In this document: positions 5,257 to 60,300 of the stretch, piece by piece
How the letters are laid out: each line of letters opens with the position of its first letter
Numbering within the stretch: position 1 is the first letter of the stretch
DNA from: Panopea generosa
Lineage: Eukaryota > Mollusca > Bivalvia > Adapedonta > Hiatellidae
Assembly: GCA_029582155.1 (NCBI GenBank)
Contig: CM055907.1
Location: 15,288,974 to 15,352,973, forward strand
Reading direction: 5' to 3'
DNA: 64,000 nucleotides
Translations under genes and position numbers: made by a program
The notes under the pieces: generated by a model
Told to the model about the DNA's origin: nothing
What the model saw: only the letters and a program-made list of their open reading frames with translations
Databases searched by the model: none

Positions 5257-5435
5257 AGCTGTAATAAGTGGCGACGAACACCAGCAAAATGATTTTAAGC
5301 ACGGTGAATTTCGTGAACAACTACAAATTCAGTGATTTTATCATCGATAAAATTACCGAGGAGCAATCTGCCAGGGACGAGGAAGTGAGACGGAAAAACA
5401 AGCGGCATTCATTATGTGCACCGTCTAATAACAAG
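5257..5435 (+). CDS. gene A, first coding exon (coding from ATG 5289)
   Basis: Acceptor TTTCAG ends at 5256 and donor GTCAGT starts at 5436. An in-frame TAA at 5262-5264 makes 5257-5288 untranslated, so the ATG at 5289 is the start. It encodes 49 residues, MILSTVNFVNN...APSNNK, ending in phase 0. Composition is hydrophilic after a short amphipathic start, with an acidic/basic stretch (EEQSARDEEVRRKNKRH) that could be a helix or a nuclear-targeting signal. The start is not a signal peptide. Confidence 0.65.
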
Positions 5436-8400
5436 GTCAGTAGAACGACATATCTATGAAAATGGAATTTTGTTTTTCAGTCTGTTGTTCACTTTATAAT
5501 GATATCTTTCAGGAACTACTGTTGAATGCAGAATGTAATGATATGAACGATGAGGATAAATTAAAATATCTTGTTACAAACGTTTTAATAAAACTACATA
5601 AAACTTACCTCAGAAGAGGAAATACAATGTTGAATCAGTGATTCTTGAATGAGTTTTAGAATTAACATCCTATGGTGTCATGATCTTAGATCTATAATAG
5701 TGGTTATATATACTTCTATATAAGACATTATTTAACTCCATGGAATATAACATTAATATATATGTATATATGTATACATGAAGCTAAATACTATCTTTTT
5801 GTGTTACGGATAAGGAATAATATTCCGTCGACCCCTTAGAGTAGTTTGATGCATTATGTAAATGGAACATTGTCAGTTTCACACTCCAATGGGTCATCGT
5901 GATCCAAGAGTGAGGTTACTAGGGTAACCAATATAGGCGACAAAGTTTTAGTTTGTTCTTTGTACCTATCTTAACCTGGCGATGAATCAATTTTATGCGT
6001 ACTAATCAGCGTTATAGTTTATGCTCTCACCTATAACCTATATTGATGCCAAATATAACCTGTAACGTGAGCAACCCTGGCTAGCTGAGTTAGTAACGCC
6101 TTCGACTGTTAATCCATAAGTTCGAATCCCTTCCAGGATAGCTCATGTAATTTGACCTACGGTCCTGAGTCTCCCATCTCTGAATGTTTGGGGTGTAGTC
6201 AGTAACCTGTAGAGATAGTGCATGTCGAATACTGGCTTAACAGTCTATCAGATCCCAGGGCAATGGCCATGGTGTGCTGATCCGCCATTTAATATATACC
6301 GGAGTAGCGATATACCATATTCAGAAAGAAAGACACCCTTCCCATACCAACTAGAAAGAACAAAAATCAATATAAAAAATCAAGAACAAACAAACAAATG
6401 CCAACATATTTTAATAGTTTTGATAATATATAGGAAATGGGCTATGGAATGGCACATATTCTAGCATGAATTCAAACTTAAGTTTTAAACGTATTTGGTA
6501 TGCAAGGGTACAACGATCTCAAATATAGATTATTTATTTTCCGCATTCTTTGTCGTCTAACATCAAACATTATATAGATCGATGAGTCACACTGCAACGG
6601 GGGATATTCACAAAAGTAGGTCAATAGTTGCTATTTACCTAAACAAAATCCCCTTAACTTATCTGATTCGCTTTCAATTAATCCGATTTCGTATATCAAT
6701 TCTGTTTGAACAATTAATTTAACAGTAACTTACGACACCCGCCCAATGTTACAGGTATTTTATTCGATTCGTTCTCGTCACAAACAGTCTATGAAATATT
6801 CAAACAACGATCAGATTGCTGCTCACTTACGAATACAAGAATGCTAATATTGAAATTTTACAATAAACTTGAATCAAATATAGGTCAGTGTTACAATGAA
6901 ACAGACATTTACATCCCGCTGTCAAACCCTAACCAGGGTAACCTCAAAAGTCAAACTTATCACTCTGGTGAATACTTGCCATTAAAAAGAATGTTTTAAG
7001 TATGCTTATTTAAATGTTTTCTTCTCGGCTTGAATGAACTATCCAAATAATTGCAAAGGATTCATGAATAGAAAACTATTTCGAGTTGTTTAAACATTTA
7101 CTCTTGGGGCAAAAATTTAACGCAAAGTGGGTGTTTGTTCGAATACGCCCTTAATAAACGCAAATATTGATAAAATCATGGTCTTAAAATCATTGCTATT
7201 TCCTTCTCCTCTACGAGGCAAATTTTAATCTGAATGTCTATTACTTTGTTGTCGTTTAGATTTATGAAAAGTTAATTAACTATTGAAATATTAGCTGTTG
7301 TCCCATCCTAACACCAAAAACAGACCTGAAATATTAACTTAGTATTAACAACATTTTTTTTACTTCTGCGCATGATTATATTCTACGAACTGTTTGTTTG
7401 GGCCATACATGCGTTAGTAATTGTGTGTCAGATGGAGAAAATTAGCTTTTTAATTGGGTTTGACACCATTTGCGACACATTTCCTGTTATATATGCCATA
7501 TCCAGTAGAACCGATAACATGCGGCTGTCATGTTGCATGAAGGAATAAAATACTAATTTTATAAATATAAAAATGCATCAAACTCATTATCTCAAATATC
7601 TTAATCTTGAATAAATTTGTAAAAAAACCCAACAAAACTAGTTCTTTCATTCATATAAACGTGTATAAAACTCAAAATCTCAAATATTTAAACTTTCGAA
7701 TAAACTTGTGAACATCCTGTCACTCCTAACAAAAACGACCTGTTTGACGAAACGGTTGACAAGGTAACAGAAGTTAACAGTAACAAAGCAGGTGTAACAA
7801 AGGAAGAAGCGTCCTCGTTTGACCACAGGCTATACTGTGATCATCAAACCACAGCAATGTTTGCCGATGTAATACCTTACCTTACTCCCAGTTGTTTAGG
7901 ATGACTCGTATAATCCCATACTTTAAGGTTGTCATTGACGGATCGTGCGTAGATCGATAATTTAAACACATGTGCGACTTAATTGTAGGTTTTATTGATA
8001 TTGATATAATATAAATCTTATTATTCTACTTAACGTATAATTGATAAGAGCAATTATAATCAGGATGTGTAATTAGTAATTAGTTACCATAGATTTCACG
8101 AGAAGGGGATTTATTACTGTGTTTACTCGACTTAAGGCGTTCGAAAATATACTTGTTTGTTCATTAACTCAAGGACAGGTAGTGGTTGGAAAACCAGTTA
8201 AGTGTCAAATTGTTATCTTATTGATCAATCGGTTAATGTTTGTGATTGGTATGTGGTCAGCAGACGGAAATAATATGCTTTGGATGTGTACATAGTAGAC
8301 TGGAGTCTTCCATAGAAAAAATACAAACAATGGTTCTATTACAGGAAACTGACTTTGCCTGTCGGAAAAGGTCATCGCTGAAAGCCCGATACTCTGGTGA

Positions 8401-11400
8401 GTTTAATTACTTTTCATTGCTTTTACCTTTTTACTGTTTCATAATTCTCTTATCATTACTTGTAAGTAGAATAGATAAATGCATTTCTCATGTTCCTTCA
8501 TTTCAGCATTTATTAGTCGCATCTTTAATTTGTGGTTTGGGTGAGGTATTTCAGCATACTTTGCATGTGTGCGACATTTTTTATGAATATATCATATCGC
8601 AACAGTATAACACATTTGTCTAACATGTTTATTATGTTATTAGCTGTGAAAGAGTTACTTCTTTCAAATTTTACCATGAAGCCATTTGTTCTTTAACCAT
8701 GAAGCCATTTGTTCTTTTACCATGAAGCCATTTGTTCTTTTACCATGAAGTAACTTGTTATTTTACCATGAAGCCAATTGTTCTTTTACCATGAAGTCAT
8801 TTGTTCTTTCACCATGAAGTAATTTGTTCTTTTACCATGAAGCCTTTTGTTCTTTTACCATGAAGCCATTTGTTATTTTACCATGACGTATTTTGTTCTT
8901 TTACCATGAAGCCTTTTGTTCTTTTATCATAAAGTCATGTGTTCTTTTACCATGAAGCCATTTGTTCTTTTACCATGAACCCATTTGTTATTTTACCATG
9001 AAGTATTTTGTTCTTTTACCATGAAGCCATTTGTTCTTTTATCATAAAGTCATGTGTTGTTTTACCATGAAACCATTTGTTCTTTTACCATGAAGCCATT
9101 TGTTATTTTACCATGAAGTAATTTGTTCTTTTACCATGAAGCCATTTGTTATTTTACCATGAAGTAATTTGTTATTTTACCATGAAGTAATTTGTTCGTT
9201 TACCATGAAGCCATGAAACCATTTGTTCTTTTACCATGAAGCCATTTGTTATTTTACCATGAAGTAATTTGTTCTTTTACCATGAAGTAATTTGTTCCTA
9301 TACCATGAAGCCATGAAGCCATTTGTTCTTTACCATGAAGCCATTTGTTATTTTACCATGAAGTAATTTGTTATTTTACCATGAAGTAATTTGTTCTTTT
9401 ACCATGAAGTAATTTGTTCCTATACCATGAAGCCATGAAGCCATTTGTTCTTTTACCATGAAGCCATTTGTTTGTTTATCTTGAAATGTATATTTATCTT
9501 TACTATCCATACACTTTATGTGTACACATGTTATTTCTATGTTACGATATTATTATTATTCTATGATTATTATATGCATTGCATAAATGTGTATATCGCA
9601 TTTATTGAAAAGAAATCACTATTTCACTATAATAAGATTAAAAAAAATCATTGTGATTTTTTTTTCATTTTAGGTGAGTTCTCAAAAACAAAATTATCTG
9701 AGCAGCCGGCTGCATCGCCGTTTGATACACCAAAAGTAGATACGTCAAGATTGATTACCATAGAAACGACGGATCAATACACATTGACCGCAGACTCGTC
9801 AAGTCTACACATATCTTTGAGAAAACATGTTAAAGTTTGTGAAAACAGTAAGTATTTGCAATCTATGAACTTTGACCTTGTGAAAAATGCAACTTTTCAA
9901 GTGAAAGACTGTCAATATACATATAGTCCTTTTCTGACATACTTCAAGTAAAGGTATCAATAAAACATCTCGGTTTATAGTATATGTGTCCAACGTACAT
10001 TCATTGTATGTTCAAGCGTAGCGGTGGTGCAGTGGATAAGTGTTGGCCGTTTACGCTAAAGGTTGCAGGTTCGATCCCAAACTCAACACGATTTATTTTA
10101 AAAGCAACAACAACAACACTCGGTATTGGTTCTACCCAGGAAGCGGACTCGAAAGCGGTTCATACAAACAAAGTAGTATACATGTATACATTATTGCAGT
10201 TGCCATTATCCCAGAAAATATGTTTGTAGGTACATATGTAATATAAACGTACTACAAAGTGCTGCATAGACTTAACAGTTTTGTGTATTCATGAGGATAA
10301 ATCATTATGTATACTTAGGAAACCTTTACAAAGCAGGTAACAGGCAGTACAATACGATATAAAGATGTTTATCGGGTTCGTATCTGTTACCAGTGTTTAC
10401 GTATGGTTGAATAATAACTATGAAAAGCTTGATAAAAATGTCCTTACATATGTAATACGATATGGCCTAGGTGCGCTCCCTGTATGTTTTATTGTTGCCG
10501 GTTCGGTGAATGTTATATTTCGTTTCATCATATCTAAATTAAATTGAAAAATTTCTTTTGCTTGAGGAGTTGTAATTGATGTAAATGAAATAAAAACCGT
10601 ACCGTTTGCTACAGGTGAAAAAAGGCTGAATAATCATACTTAGATAGAGGTTTTAGTGGTTTTAAACAACCTATATAAAGCTATGTATATACATATAAAT
10701 ACATGTAAGGAGATAATTGAAATGACAACAACGGAATTTCCGATAATTTGGATCTTTTCAGATGCACATTCACAATTTATGATTTATATATGTATGAAGG
10801 TAATTACTTGTGAATAAGCAGCCATAAATGCACATACCAGACTTCGTCGAGCGCACCAGCTTCGATTCAAACCAAAGCCACAATATCAAGGCATCTACCA
10901 ATCCGATATAATTGGTGTCAACCATTGCTTTTATACTGAAGTTTTACATGCAACACATATGGACTGGACGGACAATTTACATACATGAACTGATAGCTTT
11001 ATATGATATATATACATGTATACAATCAAAAGTGTGTAAGCGGTCACCTTTATTAAGCAGTCACTTGTCTTAAAGAGCCAAAATAGCTATTTCCCATAGC
11101 TATGCTTTCAAAGCCAGTTTACCTGTATTAAGCAGCAACCTGTCTTAAAAGGCAATTCTTGCTCATAGCATTCACTGGCTGCTTAAGACAAGTTTGACTG
11201 TATATATACTATATGTATAAATATGTATATTAACAATGAAAACGTTGGTCTTAAGTGGACTATCATCCTTGTTGGATTGTATTAATATTCGCACTCATTA
11301 ATTTACGTACACAAAATAACCATGATTATCACCATCCTCAACATCATCACTGTCATCAGTAACATCAACGACATTACCATCATCAACATCATCACTATCA

Positions 11401-12495
11401 TCAGTAACATCAACGACATTACCATCATCAGCAGCAATTGAACATTCACTGTGTTATTCATTAATTTTATCACTTATATATTTAGAAGTGTGTCTTTACT
11501 TCAGATGTGTTCAAAAGAATCGACTTCGATGAAGAAGTTGCGGGCCAGGGTCGTCTAACAGTATTTCAGTTGCATAGCAACCCATCTTATTTTCTGGCAA
11601 CGACGCATCTTCGTCATCTGGAGCTTCAGGTATACTTGAAAGAGAGAAATATGTATTTTAGTTTAATTTTAAGACATCTTTTATTCGCATAAACTATTCC
11701 TCTCCGTATCAACGATGTTAAGGTTAATATGGTATTTACAATATAAATGCTAATTATATATGGCAGTAAGAGTAGTTTTAGTGAACCTGATCTCGAATTG
11801 CAACACCCATCACGCCACAACGTACCGCTTTAAGAGGTTGTCTGTCCTTGACCAGCACTGGCTTACATCCATTATTAGATGAGGTCAATGATTAAAAAAG
11901 TAAGTGGATGAGATCCATGATTTAAAATAATTAATGGATGCGATCTATGATTTAAAATAATTAATGGATGAGATCCATGATTTAAAAGAATAAGTGGATG
12001 ATATCAATGATTTGATACAATATGGAGGTGAGATCCATGATTTAAAAGAATAAGTCGATGATATCTATGATTTGATACAATATGTGGGTGAGATTCATGA
12101 TATAAAAGAATCGTTAGTTGATAGCCATGATTTAAAAGAATAAGTGGATGATATCCATGATTTGATACAATATGTGGGTGAGATCCATGATTTGTAATAA
12201 AATAACCAATTAATCGTCTTAGCAATGATTCGATATGCACTTGAAAGGTATTTGACTATTCAGGATTTCACTGTATTTCCGAGCAATAGTCATTGTAACT
12301 TAATATTTGATATGTTTTCTTTAGATATAAATTTTGAATATATATTTTGATATTTTATTGTAGAGCTACTGTGCCGATACATTAGATGAAAGTAATCCGG
12401 ATGAGAGATTCTTTCGCTGCTTCCGATCTGAATTTGGAGTGGAACTGGTACAGCCACACGCACATAAAGGTAATATTTATTATCATGTAATGCAA

Positions 12496-12574
<79 letters not shown>

Positions 12575-13325
12575 ACAACCCCTTCCAAAAACACTACAAC
12601 ATACAAACTCACAAATAAGCTCGCACATTGTAATAACCTAGAAGAAAAACAAATACAAATCAATACACACTCCAAAGCCAATGTGACGTAAATGTCTTAA
12701 AACTGCTTGTATTTATCATATGATACATGTTGAGAAACGAACTCATATTTGTTGCAGATAAATAAAAACAAATGATTAAACGTAACAAACTATTTTATTT
12801 TAGTCCAAATAAGTATTGCTTATTCACAATATACACGGCTAAGACCAATCGGTAAATGGGAATACTCTAAAGCATATTGTTAAAAGAAGATGTAAATTAA
12901 TTAAATAACTATATTTGTGTTGTGATATCTTTAACTCTTTTTGAATTTCAGGGTATTACATCCATCACATCGACAACTTCATCAATCTGAGAAAATTAGA
13001 ATTAAACTTCCGGCCGCCAGAGGAGTTTTTTCTACACATGGAAAGAGTAGACGTCGAAACCATTGAACGTATAAATGCCAACACAACGGCCTCATCTTCA
13101 ACAACCAGTCAGAACACAGAAACATCAACATTAAATTCAAAACAATATTTGACACACCCGCCTACGAAAGTTGCCATTCCGGATATATCAAAATCAAGTT
13201 TAAAGAGGAAAGATTCTAAAAAAATTAAAGACAAATCAAGGGAAACTCCACTAGCCACAAAGTCGAGAATGTTAAGTTGTTTTGGTGTAGGACTAAAGAA
13301 AAAGAAAGATAAAACGAAGCAATGA
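5289..13325 (+). CDS. gene A: leaderless IL-1/FGF-superfamily beta-trefoil protein (cytokine-like), 325 aa, six coding exons
   Basis: Joined exons are 5289-5435, 8345-8396, 9674-9847, 11505-11629, 12364-12469 and 12952-13325; every junction is AG/GT with compatible phase and the sum is 326 codons including TGA. There is no signal peptide or membrane segment. Residues 1-90 are polar and basic (RRKNKR at 35-40, CRKR further on) and probably disordered. Residues ~92-237 show three pseudo-repeats of a beta-trefoil. The second, residues 145-165, has F145, P151, F154-L155-A156-T157 and L165 at the exact spacing of the IL-1 signature; only the Ser and the small residue after it are replaced (L147, H148). 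The third (~181-237) has D-E-R-F-F, then E-L, Y-Y-I, L-E-L and F-F-L, matching the order of strands in the C-terminal IL-1 repeat. The tail (~240-325) is Ser/Thr-rich and ends in a lysine-rich stretch. By family knowledge such folds are receptor ligands or intracellular binding modules; the role here is inferred. FGF is the main alternative, but its Cys-centred signature is absent. The start is the first ATG in frame after the upstream stop at 5262. Confidence 0.72.
5477..5641 (+). mobile_element. LINE relic: C-terminal end of a reverse-transcriptase ORF2
   Basis: The frame encodes C-S-L-Y-N-D-I-F-Q-E-L-L, then N-D-E-D-K-L-K-Y-L-V-T-N-V, then R-R-G-N and a stop. The order C-x-[LF]-Y-x-D-[IL], D-x-D/E-K-x-x-[YF]-L and a final basic R-R motif is typical of the extreme C-terminus of CR1/jockey-like LINE ORF2 proteins in molluscs. 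A second copy with the same landmarks lies at 21034-21219. Only the 3' end is present, as expected for 5'-truncated LINE insertions. It sits in intron 1 of gene A, 40 bases past the donor. Confidence 0.6.
6067..6230 (+). mobile_element. tRNA-derived SINE (degenerate)
   Basis: A tRNA-like head with an A box (tagctgagttagtaacgcc) and a B box (agttcgaatccc) starts near 6075. The following body contains 'gtcctgagtctcccatctctgaatgtttggggtgtagtcagtaacctgtag', which echoes the body of the intact SINEs at 15521, 29768 and 35168. It lacks a clear tail and is intronic in gene A. Confidence 0.5.
8345..8396 (+). CDS. gene A, coding exon 2
   Basis: This 52-base exon is bordered by acceptor ATTACAG and donor GTGAGT. 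It is entered in phase 0 and left in phase 1, and encodes ETDFACRKRSSLKARYS plus the first base of a glycine codon. Short basic content (CRKR, LKAR). It is the least certain exon of the gene because it is short, but skipping it would break the frame between exons 1 and 3. Confidence 0.55.
8664..9478 (+). repeat. 23-bp minisatellite, about 35 units
   Basis: A tandem array of the unit 'accatgaagccatttgtt' plus 'ctttt' (23 bp). Variants swap 'agcca' for 'agtaa', 'ttc' for 'tta', and there are a few short insertions such as a doubled 'atgaagcc' block. It lies wholly inside intron 2 of gene A, about 200 bases upstream of exon 3. Each unit carries ACCATGAAG, a good initiation context, but frames are broken and it is not coding. 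Confidence 0.9.
9674..9847 (+). CDS. gene A, coding exon 3 (first beta-trefoil strands)
   Basis: Acceptor TTTTAG ends at 9673 and donor GTAAGT starts at 9848. The exon is 174 bases, entered and left in phase 1, and encodes residues 67-124. The first half is Pro/Ser-rich linker (EQPAASPFDTPKV). The second half, from RLITIETTDQYTLTADSSS to HVKVCEN, alternates hydrophobic and polar residues as in the opening strands of a trefoil. The equivalent exon of gene B (58378-58551) is also 174 bases and phase 1-1. Confidence 0.75.
10014..10180 (+). mobile_element. tRNA-derived SINE with CAA-rich segment
   Basis: The head at 10014-10090 has an A box (gtggtgcagtggataagt) and a B box (ggttcgatccc). It is followed by 'aacaacaacaacactcggtattgg' and a short body. 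It is not a functional tRNA, since the 3' acceptor strand does not pair with the 5' end. It lies in intron 3 of gene A. Confidence 0.6.
11033..11203. repeat. MITE-like element, 'ttaagcagc...gctgcttaaga' family
   Basis: The left end (cggtcacctttattaagcagtcacttgtcttaa) mirrors the right end (tggctgcttaagacaagtttgactg ending at 11200). An internal extra copy of the motif (tgtattaagcagcaacctgtcttaa) suggests rearrangement. Relatives occur at 13515-13657 and 46862-46993. No coding content; intronic in gene A. Confidence 0.55.
11328..11435 (+). repeat. 45-bp tandem repeat of CAT/ATC-rich DNA
   Basis: Two and a half units of a 45-bp sequence containing 'tcagtaacatcaacgacatt' (at 11356 and 11401), with internal ATC triplet structure. 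It lies in intron 3 of gene A, about 70 bases upstream of exon 4. Confidence 0.8.
11505..11629 (+). CDS. gene A, coding exon 4 (IL-1 signature-like repeat)
   Basis: Acceptor ACTTCAG ends at 11504 and donor GTATAC starts at 11630. It encodes residues 125-166 in phase 1 to phase 0. It contains the stretch F-Q-L-H-S-N-P-S-Y-F-L-A-T followed by seven residues and Leu, which keeps the spacing of the IL-1 family pattern [FC]-x-S-[ASLV]-x2-P-x2-[FYLIV]-[LI]-[SCA]-T-x7-[LIVM] with two substitutions. This is the strongest single clue to the fold. Confidence 0.8.
11875..12205 (+). repeat. 30-bp tandem repeat array
   Basis: About eleven degenerate units built on 'gatccatgatttaaaa' plus 'gaataagtggatga', with an alternating variant 'atttgatacaatatgtgggtg' giving a 60-bp higher-order pattern from about 11995 on. 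The array is intronic in gene A. The apparent minus-strand frame with NHGYHPLILL-type repeats is a by-product of the 30-bp period. Confidence 0.85.
12364..12469 (+). CDS. gene A, coding exon 5
   Basis: Acceptor TTGTAG ends at 12363 and donor GTAATA starts at 12470. This 106-base exon, phase 0 to phase 1, encodes residues 167-201: SYCADTLDESNPDERFFRCF then RSEFGVELVQPHAHK. The D-E-R-F-F followed by E-L fits the strand pair that opens the last repeat of an IL-1-type trefoil. The exon matches 62314-62374 of gene B in position and phase but carries about 15 more residues. Confidence 0.75.
12494..12575. repeat. (AAAT)n microsatellite
   Basis: About 20 uninterrupted copies of AAAT/ATAA immediately after exon 5 of gene A, 24 bases past the donor. 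It yields a spurious YLFI-repeat frame on the minus strand. Probably length-polymorphic. Confidence 0.95.
12952..13325 (+). CDS. gene A, last coding exon (C-terminal trefoil strands and basic tail)
   Basis: Acceptor AATTTCAG ends at 12951. It encodes G-Y-Y-I-H-H-I-D...L-E-L...F-F-L-H-M-E-R-V, closing the trefoil near residue 237. A Ser/Thr/Asn-rich region follows, then KRKDSKKIKDKSRE and a terminal C-F-G-V-G-L-K-K-K-K-D-K-T-K-Q. TGA is at 13323-13325. The highly basic tail could bind nucleic acid, membrane phospholipid or glycosaminoglycan; none of this is shown. Confidence 0.75.
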
Positions 13326-13392: not shown

Positions 13393-13508
13393 GGAAGATG
13401 GAAGTTCTGCTCAGTTTATTTCTGAGGTTTTCTTTCACCAATAAAACTGGAAATGCCATGTGTTACATTTTATGTATAGAAAATGGCGTTCAATCTCATT
13501 AAAAACAA
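13393..13508 (+). mobile_element. SINE 3' fragment in the 3' flank of gene A
   Basis: The sequence from 'ggaagatggaagttctgctcag' through 'ctgaggttttctttcaccaataaaactgg' to 'aaatggcgttcaatctcattaaaaa' is a 3'-end copy of the SINE family seen at 37790-37962, 45102-45715 and 62680-62922. It begins about 70 bases past the stop codon of gene A and carries AATAAA at 13440-13445, which could serve as the polyadenylation signal. Confidence 0.6.
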
Positions 13509-21009: not shown

Positions 21010-21220
21010 ATTTAAGACGAAAACCACTTTTTAATGCAGTGTACATTTTACAATGATATCAGAGAAGAACTTGTCAATGAGTACATTTCTAATATACTGC
21101 TAAATGGTATGGATGATGTTGATAAATTTGTATATCTTGTCACAAACGTTCCCAGAAAAGTAGCTAAATATATTGTTAAGGCTTATATGACAAGAAGAAG
21201 TACAATATGTAACAAATGAC
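21010..21220 (+). mobile_element. LINE relic: C-terminal end of a reverse-transcriptase ORF2
   Basis: The frame has Q-C-T-F-Y-N-D-I-R-E-E-L, D-D-V-D-K-F-V-Y-L-V-T-N-V, P-R-K-V-A-K-Y-I and R-R-S-T before a stop at 21217. It is the better preserved of two copies (other at 5477-5641). These are the closing landmarks of CR1/jockey-like LINE proteins; the polymerase domain itself is absent. Confidence 0.65.
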
Positions 21221-33644: not shown

Positions 33645-34818
33645 TATGGTGTTTTTTTTCATGTTTTGAGTAATATACTGTACGTTCATACTGAATTCAA
33701 GTTTGTTTTGTATATTGTAAATGCAAAGACCGTTCAGGTTTTGTATAATAAACTGTACGTTCATACTGAATTTATGCTTGTTTTGTATATTGTAAATGCA
33801 GAGTTCGTTCAGGTTTTGTTTAATATACTGTACGTTCATACTGAATTTATGTTTGTTTTGTATATTGTAAATGCAGAGTTCGTTCAGGTTTTGTATAATA
33901 TACTGTACGTTCATACTGAATTCATGTTTGTTTTGTATATTGTAAATGCAGAGTTCGTTCAGGTTTTGTATAATATACTGTACGTTCATACTGAATTTAT
34001 GTTTGTTTTGTATATTGTAAATGCAGAGTTCGTTCAGGTTTTGTATAATATACTGTACGTTCATACTGAATTCATGTTTGTTTTGTATATTGTAAATGCA
34101 GAGTTCGTTCAGGTTTTGTATAATATACTGTACGTTCATACTGAATTCATGTTTGTTTTGTATATTGTAAATGCAGATTTCGTTCAGGTTTTGTATAATA
34201 TACTGTACGTTCATACTGAATTCATGTTTGTTTTGTATATTGTAAATGCAGAGTTCGTTCAGGTTTTGTATAATATACTGTACGTTCATACTGAATTCAT
34301 GTTTGTTTTGTATATTGTAAATGCAGAGTTCGTTCAGGTTTTGTATAATATACTGTACGTTCATACTGAATTCATGTTTGTTTTGTATATTGTAAATGCA
34401 GAGTTCGTTCAGGTTTTGTATAATATACTGTACGTTCATACTGAATTCATGTTTGTTTTGTATATTGTAAATGCAGATTTCGTTCAGGTTTTGTATAATA
34501 TACTGTACGTTCATACTGAATTTATGTTTGTTTTGTATATTGTAAATGCAGAGTTCGTTCAGGTTTTGTATAATATACTGTACGTTCATACTGAATTCAT
34601 GTTTGTTTTGTATATTGTAAATGCAGAGTTCGTTCAGGTTTTGTATAATATACTGTACGTTCATACTGAATTCATGTTTGTTTTGTATATTGTAAATGCA
34701 GAGTTCGTTCAGGTTTTGTATAATATACTGTACGTTCATACTGAATTTATGTTTGTTTTGTATATTGTAAATGCAGAGTTCGTTCAGGTTTTATATAATA
34801 CACTGTACGTTCATTTAT
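33645..34818 (+). repeat. 75-bp satellite array, about 15 units
   Basis: The unit holds 'ctgtacgttcatactgaatt', 'catgtttgttttgtatattg' and 'agagttcgttcaggttttg'. The period is exactly 75 bases (25 codons), so one frame on each strand stays open: a 405-codon frame on + and a 377-codon frame on -. Inner units are almost identical and outer units diverge on both sides (to about 35080 on the right), the usual pattern of unequal exchange. Absence of a codon-position bias in the differences and openness on both strands argue against a protein. Confidence 0.9.
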
Positions 34819-57300: not shown

Positions 57301-60300
57301 TAACTTAATTATTAAATAGGTGACCAGACGACGACGAAGCGAACATGATAAAAAATACAAATGGCAGTGGTTCGAGACATCAGCTTTACTATTTCCAGAT
57401 AAGCGCGAGTCTCGTAAGTTATTACTATTTTCATTATTACTGGTCCTTTGGGTAAGGCAGTTTTGCTCGGAATTAGATACGAAATCCGTTTTTTTATTGT
57501 GTTCCATACTTTAAAGGGAAACCATTTACTATCAGCAGTAGTTTTTGTTGTACATGTGTGACGGGCCTTAACAGAGTCGCCATGTATTTGATTTCAGTAA
57601 TATGATTTCGTATTGGAATTGAACTCACGGGGCTTATCTAAGTTAGGGGTATGAGTCTAAAAAGGGGACATGATATTCCGAACCAGGTGTTTTAACCTCC
57701 AATAAAAATCAAGGATCTCCTTGCCGTTCCAACAATTCATAGCCATGGAACGCTTACTAAACTATGATGTGATTCAAACTTTCCCTAAAGCTATTGACCA
57801 ATCAATGGGCTTAAATGTGACTTTACAAACATGAAATTCACTGACTTGTCATCATCCTTTTACTTTATTGATGGATGACAGTGAATCAGCGTGATCGTAA
57901 TAATTGTTAGAGGATTCTTTTAACAGATTTTATTCACGTCGTATGTTTACTGGCAGGATATCTTTGACATTTAAAATATTTGATTTAAACGATGGTTCGA
58001 ATATGTTCTTTCTCTTCAAACATATCACGCCTGACGTCTTCCTGAACGGAACTAGTTACTAAACGTAACGAACTGTAATACTTAAGGACAAGAGACATTC
58101 CTCTTATACCCTTTGTCCAAGATTCGAAAACTAGAAAATGGTGTTTGAATTGGTTAATTATTATTCGTATCATGTTTTCAAATATAGCTGCAATAAAAGA
58201 AATTCTGCATGGAAGGAAAATGTTCTTAATTATAATTTATTTAACCCCCCCCCCCAAAAAAAAAACAACAGCCATTTAAAGTGAAACATTAAATTGACAG
58301 CCATTTTCTGTTTGATGGTATACTGTTTTGTTTCGAAGTTTTATACATATATGTGATTCCTATGTTTATGCATAAAGATGGAATTGAAGAGCCAACCATA
58401 AAGAAGTTGCACTACCAACCGTTGGAAAACAACAGGTATGAACACAAGACGTGGTGCAGACTTAACGTGGAAGGGACACAACTCTATTTGGATGTAAATA
58501 CTTCGGGTGTGGAAACGGGCGTCTTGAGAGATGATACAGGAGATGAAACAAGTATGTATTGTTTGTGTTTTAATACATCCTTAAGGTCTCACTGAAGAAT
58601 TACCTCCCTTACATGACGGTAGCAAGATTATTACGCCAAAGAAATTAGAGCTGTGTAAAGCGGTTAGGCAATTATTTTGTTAAAAATACATAAAATATCA
58701 TATTTCTTTGTGCATACGGGAACATTCGAACATTTTCATGATTTGTGCAAAGTTTGGGTGACATTGGGAACTGTTTGATGATGCTATAACAGTTTAAAGA
58801 TGCATGGTGATACACTGCAACAAACGGGCAGAAGTGTCAAAAATGAAGCGGTGTCATCAAACCATCGAAATTGTGAAAAAGCAACCTGGTCAACCAGATT
58901 GGACCAACAGAGGACTATCTATGGAAATAAGGCACTTTTAGAACCATTGGTAATGTATCCAGTGTTCCAGAAGTGTATGTCTCTTTATGTAGAACAGTAC
59001 AAAATTAATTGGTATGTTTGACGTTAAGATGGAAATTACTTGGATCATGTTGCTAATAATTGAAATGATAGAGCAGTGCTCCATATTTTTAAGCTATGGC
59101 ATTTTGCATATATAACTATAACTCCTGGTGTATGTCCAAAATCATCATACCATAATTATTTATCTCCATTTATCGGAATGCTTTATCTACCACATTTTTA
59201 AATTCATCATAAAATTCAGGTCTCTCTATACAGTATGCACCTGTTCTTATTCTATATAAAAAGAAGGTCTTGGATTACAAACGTTAAAACAAATTTTACT
59301 AAAGAATCTTTTAAAAGTATATATTTTTATAGCAGGAATTCGTCTACACATAAAAATGCACATTTACTGGTAGGTTGGCAAGCTTTTCTTATTAAAGACA
59401 GTACACGCATCTATTAAAATCATATACGTTTTTTAACACTAGTAATGTCTTGTTACAGCATCGGCTACGCCAGCTTTAGTTTTTCTTTTCTGCTGCAGGA
59501 AATCACATTTCAAATGAGCCATGTTGAAAATAATTCAAACAAAATAGAACTTTAAGGGCAATGATCATGTAATGGTTGCACAAAAAAAGGGGCACATCTA
59601 TGTAGTGTGACCTTTAGAAAGCTGATCCTATATACCTATATGTAACTTAGCTCAAAATACTAATTGAAATTTCTAAAAGTATTTTTACTTTTTTTATACC
59701 ATGTTATTAAGAACTTATACAGAGAAAGAAAATCAACTGACTGAGAAGTTATAAACGTTCACATATTCACGTAAATTCTTCCATAAAAATTATTTCATTG
59801 CACAATGAAATTCTCTACAAAATGGGAATATTCTCAACGAATTATGTTTAAAGGTGTTAAAGTACTAATGCTGAAAAAAAATTGTGTAAACTGCAACTAA
59901 AACATCAAGAACAGTACTTAAGATTTTACTTCAAACTGCAATCAATATAATTCTCTACAAAATGGGAATATTCTCAACGAATTATGTTTAAAGGTGTTAA
60001 AGTACTAATGCTGAAAAAAAATTGTGTAAACTGCAACTAAAACATCAAGAACAGTACTTAAGATTTTACTTCAAACTGCAATCAATATAATTCAAGAGCC
60101 TATTTTCGTATTCAAAACATTATAAAACATCTAACCTTACATAAACCTTACATTTATGTAGAGGAAACCAACTGCAGGTGAAATTTGAATGATAAACTTG
60201 GCAAAACATTAATTCTTCACATGTAATTTATATCACGAGAGATGCAAGTTTCTTATCTTTCAATATAGTCTTTTTCATGTAATGTTATGTTCACGATACA

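Follow-up and report, generated by a model that had tools for sequence, protein, structure and literature searches.

A 64,000-nucleotide (nt) stretch of the Panopea generosa genome, hereafter the window (C14:15288974-15352973), contains a gene, here called A, that together with a diverged paralog on the same contig, B, probably encodes an IL-1-like beta-trefoil cytokine pair in an invertebrate. Both proteins lack a signal peptide by hydropathy, and a profile of the two aligns end to end with human IL-1 proteins and not with FGFs. From these comparisons, we consider the balance to lean toward A and B forming a leaderless beta-trefoil cytokine-like family related to the vertebrate IL-1 superfamily. 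Membership in that superfamily is unproven, and we do not place A and B in it, since neither the signature nor the Pfam tests support this and the fold is predicted.

Gene A and its paralog

Gene A lies on the forward strand of the window and consists of six exons with GT-AG borders, which join into 978 nt with a closed frame of 325 residues plus a stop. Its five introns have phases 0,1,1,0,1. Exon 1 (5289..5435; 147 nt, ending in phase 0) carries the start MILSTVNFV, which is kept in gene B. Exon 2 (8345..8396; 52 nt, phase 0 to 1) belongs to the N-terminal extension and matches exon 2 of B in its phases, and exon 3 (9674..9847; 174 nt, phase 1 to 1) holds the end of the extension and predicted trefoil repeat 1, with the trefoil starting at ~9742. 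Exon 4 (11505..11629; 125 nt, phase 1 to 0), whose counterpart in B is 131 nt long with the same phases, completes repeat 1 and contributes the greater part of repeat 2. Exon 5 (12364..12469; 106 nt, phase 0 to 1) encodes DERFFRCFRSEFG and opens repeat 3, which is closed at ~13049 by GYYIHHID...LEL...EEFFLHMERV in exon 6 (12952..13325). The remainder of exon 6 encodes a basic tail of ~90 residues ending in KKKKDKTKQ and the stop; B lacks the intron that precedes this exon. A probable poly(A) signal, AATAAA (13440..13445, forward strand), starts 115 nt past the stop codon.

Gene B encodes 316 residues in five exons on the minus strand of C14 (15224222-15224082, 15222220-15222148, 15221569-15221426, 15221227-15221097 and 15220507-15220046), with intron phases 0,1,1,0. 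It starts ~70 kb upstream of gene A on the opposite strand, ~65 kb outside the window. The two proteins are 28% identical over 224 residues and 31% identical in the core, and both begin with M-[IL]-L-S-[ST]-V-N-F-V and have a Cys-Phe late in the chain. Although B is without A's fifth intron, the first four intron phases are common to both. The conservation of these phases and of the start supports the exon model of A, which the first-pass annotation had assembled from the sequence and which the borders, the closed frame and the repeated exon layout of B bear out, except that the gene has five junctions rather than the six it had counted. The tail of B is also ~90 residues long and ends in TEV, which we take to be PDZ-ligand-like.

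A hydropathy scan (not SignalP) found no signal peptide-like or membrane stretch in A or B, with best 19-residue means of 0.76 and 0.71, respectively. Neither protein has a long hydrophobic N-terminal stretch, in agreement with the annotation's description of A as leaderless.

A search of the genome (1.47 Gb, 39 contigs) with the core recovered the exons of A itself and B as the one clear relative, plus a further match at E 2.8. This last match (L006) and two others at E 0.8 (L019 and L020) were considered as further paralogs and set aside as probable chance matches. No protein-level relatives were found in viral contigs or prokaryote genomes. About 3 kb downstream of B there is a duplicated copy of its 3' end at 85-87% identity (L016 1501-1639, matching C14:15216951-15217067, minus strand).

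Intron 2 of gene A holds a 23-bp minisatellite at 8669-9472, of which the row at 8669-9214 has 23.7 copies and overlapping rows reach up to 9485. At 10020-10090 in intron 3, a GGTTCGATCCC box within a tRNA-like head, recognized by eye, resembles that of a tRNA-derived short interspersed element, although ARAGORN called no tRNA at this location.

Profile affinity and database searches

We compared A and B with reference sets of nine human IL-1 proteins, eight human FGFs, one fascin (four lobes) and one STI, using a global log-odds profile aligner that penalizes register shifts. This aligner replaced a Needleman test anchored on exons and scored by averaged BLOSUM values (A+B z -0.52 to IL-1 and 1.13 to FGF), which we dropped as uninformative because even IL-33 against the other IL-1 proteins gave z 0.03. 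With the global aligner, A+B scored 24.4 against IL-1 over 150 columns end to end (z 6.2), and none of 2000 shuffles did as well. In contrast, the score against FGF was 0.7 (z 0.65), with 464 of 2000 shuffles as good. Fascin came next (z 2.0; 10 of 200 shuffles as good), and STI was near zero (z 0.16; 81 of 200).

Taken singly, B scored 17.8 against IL-1 (z 4.8; 0 of 200 shuffles) and A scored 10.5 (z 3.3; 1 of 200). Human IL-33 scored 18.4 against the other eight IL-1 proteins (z 4.7; 0 of 200), a degree of nearness to the human set that B roughly equals and A does not reach. Removing IL-18 and IL-33 from the reference set left A+B at z 3.9 (0 of 200). FGF scored 12.6 against IL-1 (z 3.9; 1 of 200 shuffles as good). 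Across six parameter sets, z ranged from 4.0 to 6.8 for IL-1 and from -0.3 to 1.0 for FGF, and reversed profiles stayed below z 1. A and B each also scored above all of 142 natural open reading frame (ORF) pieces, a null that left out the A and B loci, three FGF loci, repeats and low-complexity sequence and still held two loci with FGF exons (L027 and L028). A stricter null, which also left out L027-L030 and kept 136 of 144 pieces, gave the same outcome for all 136, with a piece maximum of 7.6.

HMMER pointed in the same direction: with --max, it gave 7.0 bits for B (0 of 500 shuffles as good) and 3.8 for A (4 of 500) on the IL-1 profile, and 4.7 for B (1 of 500) and 14.7 for A (0 of 500) on a profile of IL-18 and IL-33. 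On the FGF profile, A and B scored -1.4 (210 of 500) and -0.6 (90 of 500). With hhalign, A+B scored 24.86 to IL-1 (Prob 12%; 0 of 60 shuffles as good), 17.06 to fascin (1 of 60), 14.34 to FGF (11 of 60) and 12.46 to STI (27 of 60). As controls, hhalign placed IL-33 at 17.03 and IL-18 at 45.8 to the other IL-1 proteins, and the joined FGF exons of contig C15 at 82.8 to FGF.

Database searches returned one suggestive match. Among 24,736 Pfam models, B matched only IL33_bt (PF15095). The E-value was 0.11 with the full-length protein and 0.022 with the core, and the 15.1 bits fall short of the model's cut-off of 27. A had no match to this model. Against PDB, B had two unrelated weak matches (E 0.31 and 0.58).

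A number of observations weigh against a special relationship with IL-1. At E up to 10, A had no match in either Pfam or PDB, and the A+B profile likewise had none in PDB. The first-pass annotation had looked to a Pfam IL1 search for support, but neither A nor B matched PF00340 above its cut-off, and a search of the clam's own genome with this model was silent, as were the control genomes. Human IL-33 is missed by PF00340 as well, at E up to 1, which makes this failure weak evidence. When A was aligned alone in local mode, 8 of 200 shuffles scored as well. The global alignment looks right in repeats 1 and 3 but is visibly shifted in repeat 2, and is therefore inaccurate in part. The hhalign optimum lies one repeat out of register, as does that of A to IL-18 and IL-33 and, judged from its coordinates, the match of B to IL33_bt. 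On the IL-1 HMMER profile, FGF8 scored 7.6 bits, above A and B. Without IL-18 and IL-33 the signal weakened to 17.09 by hhalign and to 1.5 bits for A (12 of 500) and 0.1 bits for B (24 of 500) by HMMER. Comparisons of the internal repeats detected repeats 2 and 3 (1 of 100 shuffles as good) but not repeat 1, either against repeat 2 (18 of 100) or repeat 3 (49 of 100). Finally, the chain does not end at the last trefoil strand as in IL-1, given the ~90-residue tails of both proteins.

Signature, intron layout and alternative readings

The first-pass annotation had based its case largely on a stretch of exon 4 said to match the IL-1 signature exactly in its spacing. We took the PS00253 pattern as it is printed in an excerpt of PMC4880838 and scored its nine fixed positions. 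F145, P151, F154-L-A-T157 and L165 do sit where the annotation placed them, and the stretch from F145 to L165 in repeat 2 (11564..11626, forward strand) fits seven of the nine positions, with S and [ASLV] failing. However, 20 of 5000 shuffles of A reached at least seven, and the six-frame ORFs of the window (minimum 40 aa) contain three stretches that do so: A's own and two unrelated ones, with seven and eight. The pattern is not fully matched by human IL-33 and IL-18 either, which fit five and six positions. Further points tell against the proposal: B fits only five positions, and the global alignment, read by eye, places PS00253 of human IL-1 proteins in the last repeat, repeat 3, whereas the motif of A is in repeat 2. 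In the global alignment, the vertebrate signature aligns to LVQPHAHKGYYIHH in A and LIQPKQHKNIYLHH in B with its fixed letters mostly lost, and A has no PS00253 match in register in the third repeat. We dropped the motif as evidence because it is insufficiently rare, not kept in B and in the wrong repeat. The proposal of an IL-1-like trefoil consequently survives on the profile statistics and the sub-threshold IL-33 match of B, and not on the motif that had suggested it.

For the intron comparison, we took the exon lengths of IL1B to be 47, 52, 202, 165, 131 and 213 nt, which sum to an 810-nt coding sequence with phases II,0,I,I,0 and presumably put a phase-1 intron site at IL-1beta residue 40. 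In 46 of 48 parameter sets of an intron-blind alignment, the split codon of intron 3 in both A and B fell on residue 40, and in the other two on residue 37. In both genes the introns before and within the trefoil have phases 1,1,0, as in IL-1. An excerpt of PMC4880838 gives the IL-1beta phases as II,0,I,I,0, in agreement with the lengths used here. Intron 4 does not correspond: relative to the IL1B site it was unaligned in 46 of 48 sets and fell on residue 81 rather than 84 in two, and an anchored alignment placed it at residue 81 in 30 of 48 and left it unaligned in 18 of 48.

The phases are moreover not peculiar to IL-1. An FGF-like exon elsewhere in the genome (C15:16976753) is 104 nt long and runs from phase 1 to phase 0 at a comparable place. 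It matches positions 34-67 of the FGF profile at a sub-cut-off E of 0.33 and is followed ~14 kb later, on the same strand, by an FGF exon that exceeds the cut-off. We accordingly dropped the trefoil intron phases as IL-1-specific evidence, since this exon carries the identical 1/0 pair, a layout that is probably common to trefoil cytokines.

The shared phase pair is also what would be expected if A and B were divergent FGF-type or generic trefoil cytokines from a common FGF/IL-1 stock, without any particular relationship to vertebrate IL-1. Profile controls point the same way: hhalign scored FGF to IL-1 at 24.90, so A+B is no nearer IL-1 than FGF is, and placed B alone equally near IL-1 (17.14) and FGF (17.16). 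The sequence likeness of IL-18 and IL-33 to IL-1 has itself been argued to be no greater than to FGF (excerpt of PMC5861070), an argument that calls for caution here, as likeness among trefoils may be convergent. We nonetheless regard this alternative as unlikely. The global score of A+B against FGF was at the level of chance, in contrast to the 82.8 reached by the clam's joined FGF exons in hhalign. Neither protein has a signal peptide or a match to the FGF model PF00167, for which two exons elsewhere in the genome exceed the cut-off, and the Cys-x-Phe-x-Glu element that we take to be typical of FGFs is absent from both.

Marginally less probable still is an intracellular fascin-like or lectin-like trefoil scaffold that is never secreted, its IL-1 likeness being convergence on core residues. 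The lack of a leader, the long basic tail and the TEV end of B, presumably PDZ-ligand-like, would suit such a protein; fascin was also the next best comparison in both the global and hhalign analyses. However, the affinity for IL-1 was clearly stronger (0 of 2000 shuffles), and A and B match no Pfam model for Fascin or for ricin-type or other lectins and lack a QxW motif. It is highly improbable that A and B are not trefoils and owe their affinity to beta-rich composition and a small query alignment, as just two sequences, an internally undetectable repeat 1 and the lack of a significant match with standard tools might suggest, given that composition-preserving shuffled and reversed profiles scored far lower and natural ORF pieces fell short.

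As for a relationship with IL-1, the annotation had favored common ancestry over convergence. Such ancestry is likely though unproven: Pfam IL1, PDB and the in-register signature all failed to add to it, and the intron layout of the trefoil is shared with FGF.

Proposed function, genomic context and known systems

If A and B are IL-1-like, both would adopt a three-repeat trefoil fold and be made as cytosolic precursors with N-terminal extensions of ~90 residues. Release may occur by unconventional secretion or cell damage, with the core acting outside the cell, as is typical of this class. Cleavage before release could take place at Asp89 of A (9739..9741, forward strand), in PKVD|TSRLITI at the trefoil start, which is a possible caspase-type processing site from its sequence; B has GSVD|S (D77) likewise upstream of its core. 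Aspartates are, however, common in the stretch before the core. The basic C-terminal tail would be an addition absent from vertebrate IL-1s.

Signaling would presumably proceed through a TIR-domain receptor. The clam genome has at least 150 TIR-domain matches (231 candidates, of which 150 were scored), an abundance we interpret as a large TLR-type expansion; 12 of 30 fetched TIR loci have in-frame LRR-like repeats on the strand read. A crude regular expression saw no Ig-TIR receptor in 30 loci read on one strand or in 8 read on both strands (3 overlapping). Excerpts of PMC9334734 describe MyD88, IRAK and the Ig-TIR class as present in molluscs, and the molluscan cytokines they list from the Aplysia immunome are MIF, progranulin, TNF and IL-17, with no IL-1 named.

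Published accounts, as far as the excerpted texts go, place the origin of IL-1 within vertebrates. IL-1 homologs are said not to exist outside vertebrates, although IL-1 receptor-like genes do (PMC9020223, 2022), IL1 is described as missing from invertebrates and jawless vertebrates (PMC9382457, 2022), and IL-1s are traced to the earliest vertebrates (PMC12108812, 2025). An excerpt of PMC9756803 mentions IL-1alpha-like material in annelids from antibody-based reports only. No molluscan IL-1 gene was named in the titles and abstract openings searched in one open-access library, a scope that does not prove novelty. We give roughly equal weight to both sides of the question whether A and B are true IL-1 members in a protostome, in which case the ligand would predate the bilaterian split and the axis would have been lost or overlooked elsewhere rather than being a vertebrate invention. 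A ligand candidate would render the view of receptor before ligand directly testable with two defined genes.

No neighboring gene was identified in the window, where a Pfam scan of 10 of 186 ORFs gave one sub-threshold match (CPCFC, E 0.06). A 75-bp repeat at 33658-34814 (15.4 copies, 97% matches) is open over long stretches of both strands (ORFs of 410 and 394 aa) and is probably a satellite and not a gene. Two similar short ORFs at 5444-5641 and 21016-21219 resemble what we take to be the C-terminal end of a non-long-terminal-repeat reverse transcriptase; the latter had no Pfam match. At 59809-60093 there is a 140-bp tandem duplication with 100% matches, which is either very recent or an assembly effect.

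Among known systems, A and B would share their fold class with fascin and the R-type and mytilectin trefoils, but differ from them in their weak affinity for fascin (z 2.0) and in having no Pfam match, on which the comparison with mytilectins is based, and no QxW. With FGFs they would have in common the class of trefoil cytokines and, with an FGF-like exon of their own genome, the phase-1/phase-0 intron pair. Unlike FGFs, they show no global affinity above chance, no FGF Pfam match, no cysteine and glutamate element and no signal peptide. They differ from the IL-1 superfamily (IL-1beta, IL-1Ra, IL-18, IL-33, IL-36, IL-37 and IL-38) in that the FES-x(3)-P-G-W-F signature has no counterpart in register, a tail of ~90 residues is present, Pfam IL1 does not match, A has an extra intron and the host is not a vertebrate. 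Like members of that superfamily, both are leaderless, with an N-terminal extension followed by a core of ~145 residues, and have end-to-end profile affinity, intron phases 0,1,1,0 and, by eye, an R/K-x-F...G element ahead of repeat 3. Their possible cleavage sites, PKVD89|T (A) and GSVD77|S (B), precede the core in the manner of the caspase-1 site of IL-1beta.

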